The notes beneath the pieces were generated by a model, which was given only the letters and a program-made list of their open reading frames with translations, was not told where the DNA came from and searched no databases. The position numbers and the translations under genes are program-made. This document shows, one piece after another, positions 9,313 to 36,618 of a stretch of DNA of 64,000 nt. Position 1 is the first letter of the stretch. Each line of letters begins with the position of its first letter. Location: assembly GCA_022846075.1 (NCBI GenBank), contig AP025582.1, positions 372,001 through 436,000 of the forward strand, read 5' to 3'. The DNA is from Oscillospiraceae bacterium (GTDB taxonomy: Bacteria; Bacillota; Clostridia; Oscillospirales; Oscillospiraceae).

Positions 9313-9452
9313 AGCCTTCCCCTTAGGGGAAGGTGGCAGCGGCAAAGCCGCTGACGGATGAGGGAAACTGTGGATAACAAAAAAGGTTCTGCTAAAGAGA
9401 TAAGTTCCCCTCATCAGTCTGCTTCGCAGACAGCTTCCCCCAGGGGAAGCCT
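9313..9452 (+). repeat. Composite palindromic repeat, copy 1
   Basis: 140 bp. The left arm (AGCCTTCCCCTTAGGGGAAG, then a GCGGC...GCCGC hairpin and a GATGAGGG run) is matched by an inverted right arm (CCCCTCATCAGTCTGC..., ending in CAGGGGAAGCCT). Each arm has its own small hairpins and the whole folds as a long imperfect palindrome. Copies 2 and 3 lie at 13323-13458 and 28824-28962. The size and lack of coding capacity suggest a non-autonomous (MITE-like) or RNA-structural element. Confidence 0.75.
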
Positions 9453-9468
9453 AATTTGCTCCTATTCA

Positions 9469-9605
9469 GGCGCGCCTATGAGTTGCAAACGCAGTCCGTA
9501 CAGCAGGAGCCAGCGGCAGCGGCGCTAAGAGGAGTACGAGTTGACAGACGTGAGCGCTGGTCGTATAAACGCCACCACCCATAAATTTAGTTCGGCGCTT
9601 TTCTT
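9469..9605 (+). repeat. 135-bp repeat attached to the palindromic element, copy 1
   Basis: Shares CCTATGAGTTGCAAA, a GCTAAGAG run, CGAGTTGACA and ATAAATTTAGTTC with the reverse complement of 28669-28802. In both places it sits about 20 bp from the same arm of the palindromic repeat. One frame is weakly alike at the peptide level (YELQ..., RVDRR/RVDKR), but neither copy has a start codon with a ribosome binding site. Confidence 0.55.
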
Positions 9606-9738
9606 TGGCATCCACCGCAGCGTTCAGAAAACTTGCCGGTGGCAAGTTTTTAGCGTAGGCTGGCCGGCTATGCCAGCCAAGTCTCTGTTCTTGAGAACAT
9701 AAACCGAGTTTGGGCCCCGCAGGGTGGCAACCCTGCGC
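9606..9738. other. Intergenic remainder with two short hairpins
   Basis: GGCTGGC/GCCAGCC (9659-9678) and GCAGGGT/ACCCTGC (9719-9736) can form hairpins. The second lies just beyond the stop of the minus-strand ECF gene but has no T-run. No gene is seen. Confidence 0.4.
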
Positions 9739-10248
9739 CTACACCGCCAGCATCCGCTTTTTGAGGCCCACCCGGTCCACGCCGTAGGCCAGGACGGCAA
9801 AGACCAGGCCGCTGCCCACCGCCTGGACCAGGGTGCCCAGGAACTGGGGGAGGAAGGCGGCGGCGGTGCCGGTAAAGATCACGTTGGCCACGCCGTAGAG
9901 GGCGGGGGAGAGGAGCCCGGAAATGAAGATGGCCGCGATGTTCCGGCCGCAGAGGACCCGCTGGTTTTTGCTGGTAAAGGGCAGGCATACCAGGGCCTTG
10001 ACGATGAGGGTGGGCAGGACCCACATGGGGGCGGTCAGCAGGTCGGCCAGCCCCGCCCCCACGGCCCCGGCGGCCATGGCCCAAGGGGCTGGCAGCAGGC
10101 AGGCGGCCAGATAAATGAGGGCGTCCCCCAGATGGACGTAGCCCCCCGTGGGCAGGGGGATGTGGAGGATGTAGGCGGTGGTGACGGCGATGGCGGCGGC
10201 GAAGATGGCCGCCATGACCAGCTGGTGGAGCTTTTCATTTTCTCTCAT
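9739..10248 (-). CDS. ECF transporter S component, probable vitamin B6 type
   Basis: 169 residues, almost entirely hydrophobic, with about six predicted membrane segments. Its size and N-terminal helix (LHQLVMAAIFAAAIAVTTAY) are typical of substrate-binding S components of energy-coupling factor vitamin transporters, which need a separate EcfA/A'/T module (not in this window). GGAGG nine bases before the ATG supports the start. It is divergent from a MocR-type regulator. PdxU-type S components are known to be paired with such regulators, so pyridoxine or pyridoxal is the likely substrate. This is inference from context; related S components carry thiamine precursors or folate. Confidence 0.75.
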   Translation of the reverse strand: MRENEKLHQLVMAAIFAAAIAVTTAYILHIPLPTGGYVHLGDALIYLAACLLPAPWAMAAGAVGAGLADLLTAPMWVLPTLIVKALVCLPFTSKNQRVLCGRNIAAIFISGLLSPALYGVANVIFTGTAAAFLPQFLGTLVQAVGSGLVFAVLAYGVDRVGLKKRMLAV

Positions 10249-11810: not shown

Positions 11811-13067
11811 ATGGAAATGATGGACAAGCTGACCATCCTGGCTGACGCCGCCAAATATGACGCCGCCTGCACCTCCAGCGGGGTGGTCCGGGGGGGCGTG
11901 GGGGGCGGCATCGGAAACGCCACCAACTCCGGCTGCTGCCACACCTTTTCCGCCGACGGGCGGTGCGTGTCCCTGCTGAAGGTGCTGATGACCAACCACT
12001 GCTGCTATGACTGCGCCTACTGCGTCAATCGCCGCTCCAACGACGTGCCCCGGGCGGCCTTCACCCCCCGGGAGCTGGCCGAGCTGACCATCCAGTTCTA
12101 CCGGCGCAACTATATCGAGGGGCTTTTCCTCTCCTCCGCGGTGCTGAAGGACCCGGACTTCACCACCGAGCGGATGATTGAAGCTCTGCGGCTGCTGCGG
12201 AGAGAGTACCATTTCAACGGCTACATCCACGCCAAGGCCATCCCCGGCGCCGATCCGGGGCTGACCTACGAGCTGGGTCTGCTGGCCGACCGGCTCAGCG
12301 TGAACATCGAGCTGCCCTCCGAGGCCTCCCTTCAAAAGCTGGCCCCCGAGAAGAAAAAATCCGCCATCCTGGCCCCCATGGCCCAGATCCGGGACGGGGC
12401 CCGGCAGTCCAAGCAGGAGTTGAAGCTCTACCGCCACGCCCCAAGGTTCGCCCCGGCGGGGCAGGCCACCCAGATGATTGTGGGGGCCACCCCGGAGACA
12501 GACCGCCACATCCTCTCCCTGACCCAGGGGCTCTATCAGAAATACCGGCTCAAGCGGGTGTTTTTCTCCGCCTATATGCCGGTGTCCGACAGCAAGCTGC
12601 TTCCCGCCCCGGCGGACTTCAAGCCGCCGCTGCTGCGGGAGCACCGGCTCTACCAGGCCGACTGGCTGCTGCGGTTTTACCACTTCAAGGCGGAGGAGCT
12701 GCTGGACGAGGGCCACGAGAATTTCGACAACGCCCTGGACCCCAAATGCGACTGGGCCCTGCGGCACATGGAGCATTTTCCGGTGGAGGTGAACAAGGCC
12801 GACTACGAGACCCTTCTGCGGGTGCCGGGGCTGGGGGTGCGCAGCGCCCAACGCATCGTCACCGCCCGGCGGTGCGGGCCGCTGACCTTCGAGGGGCTCA
12901 AGCGGCTGGGTGTGGTGCTGAAGCGTGCCCAGTACTTCCTCACCTGCGGGGGGCGGATGATGCCGGGGCTGCGGTGCTCGCCGGAGGGGGTGTACCGCCG
13001 TTTGGCGGGGCTGGAGCGGGAGGCCCTGCCCCAGGCGGGGTGGGAGCAGATGACGCTGTTTGAGTGA
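11811..13067 (+). CDS. Putative DNA modification/repair radical SAM protein (UDG-linked family)
   Basis: 418 residues. The N-terminal signature (DAAKYDAACTSSG, GGIGNATNSGCCHTF) and the cluster motif CCYDCAYC (C64, C68, C71) are characteristic of the radical SAM family found next to DUF4130 and uracil-DNA glycosylase genes. A C-terminal helix-hairpin-helix (LLRVPGLGVRSAQRIVTARR, about residues 330-350) suggests direct DNA contact. The reaction is not established for the family. The partner DUF4130 gene lies at 13735, but here the two are separated by 667 bp of repeat sequence. The LexA-like dyad in the promoter fits a damage-response role. No uracil glycosylase is found in the window. Confidence 0.85.
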   Translation: MEMMDKLTILADAAKYDAACTSSGVVRGGVGGGIGNATNSGCCHTFSADGRCVSLLKVLMTNHCCYDCAYCVNRRSNDVPRAAFTPRELAELTIQFYRRNYIEGLFLSSAVLKDPDFTTERMIEALRLLRREYHFNGYIHAKAIPGADPGLTYELGLLADRLSVNIELPSEASLQKLAPEKKKSAILAPMAQIRDGARQSKQELKLYRHAPRFAPAGQATQMIVGATPETDRHILSLTQGLYQKYRLKRVFFSAYMPVSDSKLLPAPADFKPPLLREHRLYQADWLLRFYHFKAEELLDEGHENFDNALDPKCDWALRHMEHFPVEVNKADYETLLRVPGLGVRSAQRIVTARRCGPLTFEGLKRLGVVLKRAQYFLTCGGRMMPGLRCSPEGVYRRLAGLEREALPQAGWEQMTLFE

Positions 13068-13098
13068 GGGTTCTCCCACCTGTGGAAGGAGGGGGAAC

Positions 13099-13310
13099 GT
13101 GGGGGGCTATTCTTTCTGGAAAGAATAGCCCCCCACACCTCTCAAGAAAGCACCAGGGGGAGAGAGTTCCGACTCTCTCTCCCCCTGGACCCCCTCTCTC
13201 AACGGCCAAAGGAGGGGAAACTGCGGTCTCCCCTCCTTTGGAAACCTCCCCAAGCTGTCCACAAGGGGGTGGGAAACCCCGTCCCCTTACTCCGTAACGG
13301 GTCCGGGGTT
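13099..13310 (+). repeat. 212-bp four-hairpin repeat, copy A
   Basis: Four consecutive stem-loops lie at 13099-13136 (17-bp stem, loop CTGG), 13153-13188, 13206-13241 (12-bp stem) and 13275-13310. The element has exactly the same length and hairpin order as 25305-25516. It begins 32 bases after the last base of the upstream stop codon, as copy B does. Spacers between hairpins are conserved (CAAGAAAGCA; ACCCCCTCTCTCAACG; CCCCAAGCTGTCCACAAG). No T-run follows any stem and no coding frame is credible. The first hairpin may protect the mRNA 3' end. Confidence 0.8.
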
Positions 13311-13322
13311 CGGCAGGTCTTT

Positions 13323-13458
13323 GGCTTCCCCTGGGGGAAGCTGTCTGCGAAGCAGACTGATGAGGGGAACTCATCAGGTTGGCAGGGCCTTTGTTGTTAT
13401 CCCCAGTTCCCCTCATCCGTCAGCCCTTCGGGCTTCCACCTTCCCCCAAGGGGAAGGC
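13323..13458 (+). repeat. Composite palindromic repeat, copy 2
   Basis: Same family as 9313-9452. The left arm starts GGCTTCCCCTGGGGGAAGCT with a TCTGCGAAGCAGA hairpin and GATGAGGGGAA. The right arm reads CCCCTCATCCGTCAGC and ends TTCCCCCAAGGGGAAGGC. It directly follows the four-hairpin repeat. Downstream flank ACACATCAGCGGTA is shared with copy 3. Confidence 0.75.
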
Positions 13459-13734
13459 AAAGGATCAGGCTGTGTCAAGCACACATCAGCGGTAGCAGCG
13501 CAAGGGGACCCACAGGTCGCACAGACGCTCCCGTGCTTTTCACCCTAACTTCGGGTACTAAACCTTCTACCAAGAAGGGAATCTGCGCTCAAGGCTGCAC
13601 CAGAGACTTTTCTTCGGGGGTCTGGGGGACATTTTTTCCTCGGGAAAAGAAATGTCCCCCAGAAGCACGCACCTCCCGACGTGTAGCCATCCAACACTAA
13701 ACACCCCTACCCACCCAACCAGAAAGGTGTTACA
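13459..13734. other. Intergenic remainder with one long hairpin
   Basis: A hairpin at 13621-13663 (arms TCTGGGGGACATTT and AAATGTCCCCCAGA, with a few inner mismatches) is the only clear structure. It recalls the first hairpin of the four-hairpin repeat in shape but not in sequence. AAAGGTG at 13723-13729 is the ribosome binding site of the next gene. Confidence 0.5.
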
Positions 13735-23833: not shown

Positions 23834-25273
23834 ATGGCTCAGGACAAGAAGCAGGTGGAGCAGATCACCGACATGGAGGTGGACTTCGCCCAGTGGTTCA
23901 CCGACGTCTGCCGCAAGGCGGAGCTCATCGACTATACCAGCGTGAAGGGCATGTTCATCTACCGCCCCTACGGCTACGCCATCTGGGAGAACATCCAGCA
24001 CACCCTGGACGGGGAATTCAAAAAGACCGGGCACGAGAACGTGTACCTGCCCATGCTGATCCCCGAGAGCCTCCTCCAGAAGGAGAAGGACCACGTGGAG
24101 GGCTTCGCCCCCGAGTGCGCCTGGGTCACCATGGGCGGCGACGACAAGCTGGAGGACCGCATGTGCGTCCGCCCCACGTCGGAGACCCTGTTCTGCGAGC
24201 ACTACGCCCACATCATCCACTCCTGGCGGGACCTCCCCAAGCTCTACAACCAGTGGTGCTCGGTCCTGCGCTGGGAGAAGACCTCCCGTCCCTTCCTCCG
24301 CCACCGGGAGTTCCTCTGGCAGGAGGGCCACACCATGCACGCCACTCCCGAGGAGGCCCGGGAGGAGACCATGCGGATGTTGAACATCTACGCCGACTTC
24401 TGCGAGAACGTGCTGGCCATGCCCGTGGTGAAGGGCCGCAAGACCGACAAGGAGAAGTTCAACGGCGCGGAGGAGACCTACACCGTGGAGTGCATGATGC
24501 ACGATAAGAAGGCCCTCCAGGCCGGCACCAGCCACTACTTCGGCGACGGCTTCGCCAAGGCCTTCGACATCACCTTCACCGGCAGGGACAACCAGCCCCA
24601 TTACCCCCACCAGACCTCCTGGGGCGTGTCCACCCGGCTCATCGGCGGCATCATCATGACCCACGGCGACAACAACGGCCTTGTGCTGCCCCCCCGTATC
24701 GCCCCCACCCAGGTCATCGTCATCCCCGTGGCCCAGCACAAGGAGGGCGTCATCGAGGCCAACCGGGCCGTGATGGAGCGGCTCCAAAAAGCGGGCTTCC
24801 GGGTAAAGATGGACGACTCCGACCAGTCCCCCGGCTGGAAGTTTGCCGAGTACGAGATGAAGGGCGTGCCCCTGCGGCTGGAGCTGGGCCCCAAGGATAT
24901 GGAGAAGAACCAGTGCGTCCTGGTCCGCCGGGACTCCGGCGAGAAGGCCTTCGTCTCCCTGGACAATATCGAGGAGACGGTGGGCCAAATGCTGGACGCC
25001 ATCCACGACGGGCTGTACGCCCGGGCCCTTAAGAACCGGGAGGAGAACACCTACCCCTGCGCCACCCTGGACGAGGTCAAGGAGAAGATGGCCGCCCAGG
25101 GCGGGTTCGCCAAGACCATGTGGTGCGGCGATCTGGAGTGCGAGCTCAAAATGAAGGAGGAGGCCGGGGTCACCTCCCGGTGCATTCCCCTGGAGCAGGA
25201 GCACCTGGGCGACACCTGCGCCTGCTGCGGGAAGCCCGCCAGGCATATGGTCTATTGGGGCGTAGCTTATTGA
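23834..25273 (+). CDS. proS: Prolyl-tRNA synthetase, archaeal/eukaryotic-type (ProS type 3)
   Basis: 479 residues. Class II motifs ([56 protein letters not shown]) and the C-terminal zinc-type domain ending [18 protein letters not shown] are the short ProS type without the bacterial editing insertion. It charges tRNA-Pro. The start has AAAGGATGGAGAG upstream and its own promoter. A four-hairpin repeat begins 32 bases after the end of the gene. Confidence 0.95.
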
Positions 25274-25304
25274 GTTTAACGCACGTTTCAGCGTGCGGGG
25301 AAGC

Positions 25305-25516
25305 GTGGGGGGCTATTCTTTCTGGAAAGAATAGCCCCCCACACCCCCCAAGAAAGCACTCGGGGGAGAGAGTTTCGACTCTCTCTCCCCCAAGACCCCC
25401 TCTCTCAACGACCAAAGGAGGGGCGCCCGCGGGCGCCCCTCCTTTGGAAACCACCCCAAGCTGTCCACAAGAACAGAGAAAACCCCGGCGGCGCACTCCG
25501 TAGCACCGCCGGGGTT
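25305..25516 (+). repeat. 212-bp four-hairpin repeat, copy B
   Basis: Same length and order as 13099-13310. Hairpins are at 25305-25342 (17-bp stem identical to copy A), 25362-25391, 25412-25447 (a perfect 36-base palindrome; copy A keeps only the outer 12 bp) and 25481-25516 (11-bp stem, with sequence changed on both sides relative to copy A so that pairing is kept). The paired changes indicate that structure is under selection. Confidence 0.8.
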
Positions 25517-25878: not shown

Positions 25879-26124
25879 ATGGAAACGAGAATGATTTTTT
25901 CAGTCAGGATTCGGAATCTGCGCACAGCCAGCGGCTATTCCCAACAACAGATTGCCAAATTTCTGCAAGTGGCGCCCAACACATACTCCCGCTACGAGTG
26001 TGGAAAAATCCTGTGTCCCTTGGACATGGTGATTCGTCTCGCGCAGTACTTTCACACCAGCGTGGACTATCTTGCGGGGCTGACGGATACGCCCGCGCCG
26101 CATCCCCGCCGCAAGTCCCCCTAA
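25879..26124 (+). CDS. XRE-family HTH transcriptional regulator (short)
   Basis: 81 residues, a single helix-turn-helix (IRNLRTASGYSQQQIAKFLQ, then VAPNTYSRYECGK) with the C-terminal FHTSVDYLAGLTD common to small clostridial Cro/CI proteins. Its target is unknown. The ribosome binding site is weak and an in-frame ATG four codons later is possible. Base composition is more AT-rich than the neighbours and it is flanked by repeats, which fits an acquired gene. The aroF promoter begins 9 bp after its stop. Confidence 0.75.
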   Translation: METRMIFSVRIRNLRTASGYSQQQIAKFLQVAPNTYSRYECGKILCPLDMVIRLAQYFHTSVDYLAGLTDTPAPHPRRKSP

Positions 26125-28823: not shown

Positions 28824-28962
28824 AGGCTTCCCCTGGGGGAAGCTGTCGAGCGAAGCGAGACTGATGAGGGGAGCTTATCGGTTTGTAAAGCCTTTCCCAT
28901 GTCTGCAGTTCCCCTCATCCGTCAGCGGCTTCGCCGCTGCCACCTTCCCCCTGGGGAAGGCT
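28824..28962 (+). repeat. Composite palindromic repeat, copy 3
   Basis: The left arm begins AGGCTTCCCCTGGGGGAAGC with a GCGAAGCG hairpin and GATGAGGGGAG. The right arm reads CCCCTCATCCGTCAGCGGC and ends CCCCCTGGGGAAGGCT. The central 40 bases differ from the other copies while the arms are conserved. From 28963 to the aroA ribosome binding site (GGAAAGGAG, 29058-29066) I see only ACACATCAGCGGTA, shared with copy 2. Confidence 0.75.
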
Positions 28963-36051: not shown

Positions 36052-36103
36052 GTTCCCTCCATCAGTCAGCCTGCGGCTGACAGCTTCCCCCGAGGGGAAG
36101 CCT
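36052..36103 (+). repeat. Single arm of the palindromic repeat family
   Basis: CCCTCCATCAGTCAGCCTGC, GGCTGACAGCTTCCCCC and GAGGGGAAGCCT: one conserved arm directly after the radical SAM gene. From 36104 to 36300 only degraded traces of similar sequence (GGACCCCGGGGGAAGCCCC; CCCTCAGCCCGCGG) are seen, and no gene. Confidence 0.6.
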
Positions 36104-36315
36104 AAAAGACACCTTGGCCTGCGGCATATGACCTCAACGACTTTGCTTGCATCAAAGTGGGCCTAAGCTGTTGCTGAGGTCCGCTGGACCCCGGGGGAAG
36201 CCCCAAAGATACGGGTTTCCTTATCCCTCAGCCCGCGGTTGAGCGCGCGTTTTGGGGCCTCCTCTCAGGTAAGCCCCGGAGGGCGAAAATTCCTCAAAAA
36301 AATTGAATATTTTGC

Positions 36316-36350: not shown

Positions 36351-36618
36351 GCGCCTGTTTAGGGGCGCACTATGCGATGATGCGGGAGATTGCGGTCTGT
36401 GACCGGTAACTTCCGCGGAGTATGTCCGTTGAATCGGGCGGCTGAGAACCTCTGTGCCAGCGTATATCGTCACGCTGAGGCAGAACCGGCCGGCTTTATC
36501 CTGCCGGTTTTCTTTCTGTCGTGGAGTGATACGCACGAGATAGTGGTCAGAAAAAGTTCTCACCGTACGAAGGGCGGCACCCAACACCACCACTCGTATG
36601 TTAAGGAGGAAACAAACC
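36351..36618 (+). promoter_or_regulatory. Structured S10-operon leader with attenuator-like hairpin
   Basis: About 268 bases of untranslated leader. A bulged hairpin at about 36451-36484 (TCTG-T-GCC-AGCGT against ACGCT-GA-GGC-AGA) is followed by AACCGGC/GCCGGTT (36484-36509) and TTCTTTCTG, a terminator-like structure. In other bacteria the S10 leader is the target of autogenous control by L4; the same is inferred here. TTAAGGAGG serves rpsJ. Confidence 0.65.

Follow-up and report, generated by a model that had tools for sequence, protein, structure and literature searches.

The window, the whole 64,000-nucleotide stretch of DNA that was analyzed, holds two copies of a hairpin-rich element on its plus strand (positions 13099 to 13310 and 25305 to 25516), each located behind an open reading frame (ORF) (11811 to 13067 and 23834 to 25273, respectively). 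As described in the original prediction, both copies are 212 bp long, begin 32 bases past the end of the upstream gene, and carry four hairpins (H1 to H4) in register. The differences claimed between the copies were likewise borne out: H1 is identical, H3 changes from a partial palindrome in copy 1 to a perfect one in copy 2, and H4 differs in both arms while keeping its pairing. An alignment of 19 copies places the beginning of the element before 13099 and 25305, at a fifth hairpin (H0), which is variable and immediately follows the stop codon. In other copies, the span from H0 to H4 is about 238 to 253 nt, and the start lies about 15 to 75 nt after the stop codon. As both values vary, the equal length and the equal distance from the stop codon are coincidences of the window pair.

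In copy 1, H0 (13073 to 13095, located with the 19-copy alignment) follows the stop codon at 13067 and is weak. H1 (13099 to 13136) is a 17-bp hairpin opening with GTGGGGGGCTATTCTTTC, followed by a linker (ACCTCTCAAGAAAG; 13137 to 13150) that complements the 5′ arm of H1 in parallel orientation, skipping 3 nt; together, the two would form a first, alternate-strand triplex. H2 (CCAGGGGGAGAGAG...CTCTCTCCCCCTGG; 13153 to 13188) is followed by ACCCCCTCTCTCAAC (13189 to 13203), which mirrors the 3′ arm of H2 and was also picked up in a scan of the window hairpins. H3 (CCAAAGGAGGGG...CCCCTCCTTTGG; 13206 to 13241) precedes the third putative third-strand segment (AAACCTCCCC; 13242 to 13251), and H4 (AACCCCG...CGGGGTT; 13275 to 13310) ends the left part of the element, here called A. 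Beyond it lie a middle repeat, M (GGCTTCCCC...GGGGAAGGC; 13311 to 13464, plus strand), and an inverted right end, B (about 13474 to 13687, minus strand), which has its own H0 and a candidate triplex hairpin of the H1 type (hairpin at 13622 to 13662 and third segment at 13605 to 13621).

Copy 2 consists of A only. Its H0 (25281 to 25296) has the form GCACG-loop-CGTGC, and H1 (25305 to 25342), H2 (25359 to 25394), H3 (25412 to 25447, a 16-bp palindrome), and H4 (25481 to 25516) follow, with the corresponding linkers ACCCCCCAAGAAAG (25343 to 25356), ACCCCCTCTCTCAAC (25395 to 25409), and AAACCACCCC (25448 to 25457) after the first three. An XRE-like ORF lies downstream of this copy (25879 to 26124).

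Copy number, insertion, and mosaic structure

The genome holding the window (G000; 3.23 Mb in a single contig) belongs to an Oscillospiraceae genus near Pseudoflavonifractor. It contains at least 30 copies of A by BLAST and about 35 by a covariance model built from 19 copies. The element was found in 13 of the 16 genomes of the genus at an E value of ≤1e-12. Among the 40 relatives searched, strong matches were confined to the same genus; outside it, in 24 other genera, three genomes had weak matches (E > 0.001). Named records carrying the motif are Oscillospiraceae MAGs and an uncultured Pseudoflavonifractor sp., and the phages, plasmids, and viral contigs searched gave no match.

The stems covary strongly in the relatives. 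Thirty-eight of the 48 stem pairs have changed on both sides, 93.4% of the cells are paired, and the covariation score (0.456) is far above those of the shuffled (0.168) and slid (≤0.113) controls. A recent duplication without function, which the original prediction had named as the alternative if only two copies existed and relatives showed no covariation, is thus not what these counts describe.

Comparison with the relatives also shows insertion. In G000, the element starts directly after the stop codons of recG and aspS, yet it is missing behind aspS in all 11 relatives with a readable gene 3′ end and behind recG in all 14 such relatives (25 loci). In several of the latter, only 10 to 30 bp separate recG from the next gene, which appears to be the one located beyond A, M, and a truncated B in G000, where it begins more than 400 bp from recG. 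Insertion positions are not common to different species. These observations support a mobile, noncoding, genus-specific repeat that inserts between genes, typically directly after a stop codon. The only transposase type sought, the Y1 transposase (Y1_Tnp, PF01797), had no match in G000, and mobilization of the REP/RAYT type was rejected on this ground. No Rfam 15 family scored above its gathering score at the element; the sub-threshold matches were weak, mostly to miRNA or sRNA models far under their cutoffs. Elsewhere in the window, an S10-Clostridia ribosomal protein leader (Rfam RF03136, 43 bits) is found at 36369 to 36441 on the plus strand.

Many copies of A, which spans about 250 bp and five hairpins (H0 to H4), form the left end of a mosaic of approximately 630 bp, in which A is followed by M (about 160 bp) and an inverted B (about 220 bp). 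Entered from the other side, B opens with the same kind of H0-H1 module as A, so that the two ends have an inverted module in common by structure, while their sequence identity looks low. B has about 40 copies, some with M but without A, and two pairs of A copies are arranged tail to tail. None of the loci inspected carried a gene between A and B, as a long autonomous version would.

Several further repeats accompany the mosaic. M is a second interspersed palindromic repeat (GGCTTCCCCTGGGGGAAGC...GGGGAAGGC), with window copies at 13311 to 13464, 9374 to 9451, 28825 to 28883, and 36052 to 36110; it often lies between A and B but also occurs alone or with B only. The B copies (L143 to L172; about 40, including the one in the window) carry their own putative triplex hairpin of the H1 type, and in the variant at L038, a longer T-run is matched by a longer A-run in the third segment (AAAGAAAAAAG). 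A further family (GGTTTATG...GGATGCCAAA...GCGCCGCTGCCGCTGA) comprises B-like pieces beside M (window 9600 to 9750, minus strand; L152, L159, and L161). Some copies of the element (L048, L054, L056, L059, L113, and L114) contain insertions of other palindromic repeats, in two cases (L048 and L114) at the identical place in the H2 loop (GACTC|AACAGC...). The loops of H1, H3, and H4 are found in both orientations (e.g., ACTTCGTA versus TACGAAGT; L008, L015, L017, and L030), which suggests that entire palindromes have been inverted in the DNA.

The genes upstream of the G000 copies are mostly housekeeping genes, such as those for IleRS, ProRS, AspRS, RecG, RNase J, UvrC, and a release factor. None of the upstream genes is common to the copies of G000 and those of the relatives, except for small XRE genes. 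A small XRE/HTH_3 gene lies directly upstream of 11 copies, two of them in G000 (L051, L066, L068, L077, L078, L079 [two copies], L086, L108, L110, and L114), with part of these neighbors recognized by sequence similarity only. As HTH_3 matches number 16 to 56 per genome (roughly 2% of genes), about one such neighbor would be expected by chance, and the 11 observed are far above the expectation from gene share. Along the G000 chromosome, with dnaA at base 398, A and B are both origin proximal: full copies of A lie at 34 to 1141 kb and 2378 to 3195 kb, and B copies lie at 30 to 1140 kb and 2089 to 3220 kb. No copy of either was found in the roughly 0.95 Mb (from about 1.14 to 2.09 Mb) that surround the presumed terminus. 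Counted by hand, 28 of the 35 A copies point in the direction of replication, a bias that is expected if copies follow gene direction.

Putative third-strand segments and the strand that may fold

The most unusual feature of the element, absent from the original prediction, is the relation between the hairpins and the linkers behind them. Each linker after H1, H2, and H3 complements the 5′ arm of its hairpin in parallel orientation and therefore mirrors the 3′ arm, with a single register throughout. Examples for H2 are the arms GGGGGAGAGAG, GAGAGGGAAAG, GGGGAGGGAGAG, and GAGGGGGGA of different copies, which are followed by the linkers CCCCCTCTCTC, CTCTCCCTTTC, CCCCACCCTCTC, and CTCCCCCTT, respectively. 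In H1, the C residues match the G-run, 3 to 4 nt are skipped, and the linker then continues as AAGAAAG for TTCTTTC, AAGAAAC for TTCTTTG, or CGAAAC for GCTTTG. The linker follows changes in arm length as well as base changes, and the rule holds over many unrelated-looking arm sequences.

For statistical comparison, the H2 register was set by the structure, without fitting. The linkers matched their own arms at 87.5% of positions, compared with 63.3% when linkers were swapped between copies (standard deviation [SD], 2.25; maximum, 71.3; 5,000 swaps), and sliding the register by 1 to 3 bases lowered the match to 32 to 56%. These swapped and slid controls rule out chance from a C-rich composition. 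An antiparallel pairing between linker and 5′ arm fitted more poorly (0.697 versus 0.876 for H2). In comparisons of H2 copies with one or two arm differences, the linkers differ at 57 of the 67 changed positions and at 19 of the 389 unchanged ones. The association between arm base and linker base is strong (P of about 1e-45 by Fisher's test, with one row per distinct arm [25 arms]), although this and the other P values overstate independence and measure consistency rather than independent events, because the copies share ancestry. In the triplet code of H2, G is read as C in 326 of 347 cases and A is read as T or A in 130 of 136. Among the 94 hairpins of the window, the two H2 hairpins rank first and second for linker match, that of copy 2 being the best, with its scored arm fully matched; H1 of copy 2 ties for third. 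The distal part of H1 gave a score of 6.44 for matched pairs and 5.14 for swapped pairs (0 of 2,000 swaps as high). For H3, the difference was small (0.617 versus 0.595; 2 of 2,000), and H3 alone is weak evidence because few of its arm types vary; its AAA-to-AAA rule could have a cause other than a triplex. H0 and H4 were considered as extra triplexes and rejected, as inspection revealed no consistent third segment.

Three asymmetries between the strands point to the antisense (template) DNA as the strand that would fold. An A in the arm pairs with a linker A as well as a T (A to A in 127 of 194 cases in H3 and 24 of 136 in H2), which is permitted only on the antisense strand, since T·A-T and A·A-T are canonical in the antiparallel purine motif and A over A-T does not belong to the pyrimidine motif. 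Mismatches on the sense strand of H1 to H3 are A·C in 52 cases and G·T in 8, i.e., wobbles on the antisense strand; over all stems, the counts are 65 and 20 (P of about 1e-6), with fewer independent events than counted because a conserved A·C in the H1 of the relatives contributes. In cases of conflict between the two arms, the linker agrees with the 3′ arm 19 times and with the 5′ arm 7 times, and in an antisense fold, the central purine strand is the one specified by the 3′ arm. Finally, according to Holder et al. (2015; PMC4666352), RNA is reported not to form triplexes of the purine motif, which favors DNA over RNA.

Interpretation and competing explanations

The element is a genuine multicopy mobile DNA element, and its comparative signal for predicted intrastrand triplex folding is strong. 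We consider it quite probable that A is the left part of a mobile repeat in which the segment behind each of H1, H2, and H3 can occupy the major groove of its hairpin as a third strand. One and the same strand would then form three intrastrand triple helices in a row. This reading draws on the observed copy number, the insertions, the two- and three-strand covariation in fixed register, the triplet code, and the strand asymmetries. H1 would be an alternate-strand triplex, with a third strand that skips 3 to 4 nt as it switches from the G-run in one arm to the purines in the opposite arm. If the covariation reflects a real triple helix, it would probably consist of G·G-C, A·A-T, and T·A-T triplets on the antisense DNA when this strand is transiently single stranded. 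We propose more tentatively, as one serious possibility, that selection acts on the triplex and that the folded triple-helix ends of the single-stranded antisense DNA are recognized by a putative mobilizing or replication-linked enzyme, possibly as part of a new single-stranded-DNA-based mobility or roadblock system.

The original prediction had left the choice between a functional RNA and a structured mobile element. The mobile part is upheld by the approximately 35 genus-restricted copies and the empty sites in relatives, and the RNA part is not favored. As an RNA, the element would act in the 3′ untranslated region, with hairpins of the sense transcript forming pyrimidine-motif triples (C+·G-C and U·A-U) that shield the 3′ end of the mRNA or act in transcription termination. 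Its placement on the strand of the upstream gene, directly after the stop codon and often behind housekeeping genes, would suit such a role, as would the T-run after H4 in several copies and the strong two-sided covariation; PMC4666352 also states that RNA can form pyrimidine-motif triplexes. We nevertheless regard this explanation as unlikely. Sense G·U pairs are almost absent and the sense A·C mismatches correspond to antisense wobbles, the frequent A-to-A matches are not pyrimidine-motif triples, and the 5′ arm, which would be the central purine strand of a sense fold, is the least constrained arm. Moreover, the absence of the element behind the same genes in relatives indicates that it has no conserved gene-specific role.

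Two further explanations dispense with a third strand. If the element were an ordinary MITE-like hairpin repeat, its compensatory changes could have arisen from template switching at palindromes, with one arm copied onto the other and no selection or triplex involved; the two loop orientations of H1, H3, and H4 and the nearly perfect Watson-Crick stems are what such palindrome correction would give. Template switching yields reverse complements, however, and cannot yield a mirror-image linker that tracks each arm change in register, length changes included, which makes this account very unlikely. It is still harder to credit that a protein imposes the mirror relation, with hairpin and linker forming a composite binding site whose half-sites have common base preferences. 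The XRE/HTH_3 genes behind which 11 copies lie hint that a DNA-binding protein may be connected with the element, but most copies have no such neighbor, and arm types such as GGGGGAGAGAG, GAGGGGGGA, GAGAGGGAAAG, and GGGGAAGGGCG are too different for a sequence-specific protein, while the pairing rule is still kept. Intrastrand triplex folding of the antisense DNA thus stays our preferred reading. The formation and importance of intrastrand DNA triplexes in living bacteria have been in question since BoxC/PIT was described, and a hairpin and third strand that change together over dozens of copies and more than 10 species would be evolutionary evidence for selected triplex folding. The family also offers natural sequences, strand-switching ones included, for direct triplex tests, together with a strand-specific prediction.

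Relation to known repeats and triplex motifs

Multicopy, noncoding, and inserted where relatives have empty sites, the element behaves like a MITE. It resembles MITEs, REP/BIME elements, and REPINs in being present in tens of palindromic, modular (A, M, and B) copies with inverted ends. Unlike these elements, it is much larger, has multiple hairpins, and is not accompanied by a REP-associated Y1 transposase in G000, and what its two ends have in common appears to be their structure more than a strict terminal inverted repeat. Integron attC sites likewise depend on the folding of one DNA strand and are located immediately after ORFs. This is a resemblance only: the genes upstream of the present element are resident housekeeping genes, not cassettes. 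The mirror-symmetric purine/pyrimidine tracts recall H-DNA, but H-DNA needs only a mirror repeat in the duplex, whereas the present element combines mirror and inverted repeats, so that a single strand could fold alone.

The closest likeness is to the BoxC/PIT (potential intrastrand triplex)/TM motif of E. coli and other bacteria (Hoyne and Maher, cited in Holder et al. 2015, PMC4666352). According to the 2015 study, the E. coli motif forms stable triplexes in vitro, but none were shown by in vivo footprinting, and it clusters near the origin in K-12 but not in other strains. Both elements are interspersed, intergenic, and G/C rich; have pyrimidine, purine, and third-strand segments consecutively on one strand; include both A·A-T and T·A-T; and show inverted pairs and origin-proximal clustering (in K-12 for the E. 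coli motif). In H1, H2, and H3, likewise, three consecutive segments of the same strand obey the triplet rules. The TM motif is described there (PMC4666352) as 34 to 37 nt long, with one class II triplex and the consensus CCCTCNCCC-N3-6-GGGNGAGGG-N3-GGGNGAGGG. The present element departs from this consensus and from the class II order: its sequences are different, and its antisense order is third strand-purine-pyrimidine (class I; class III on the sense strand). As it would work alike but differs in consensus and class, we view it as a variant of a BoxC/PIT-like triplex motif rather than a member of that family. It would place three tandem triplex hairpins, one of them alternate strand, in approximately 250 bp with two more hairpins, and its arms and third strands covary over copies and species, which the cited parts of PMC4666352 do not describe for the TM motif.
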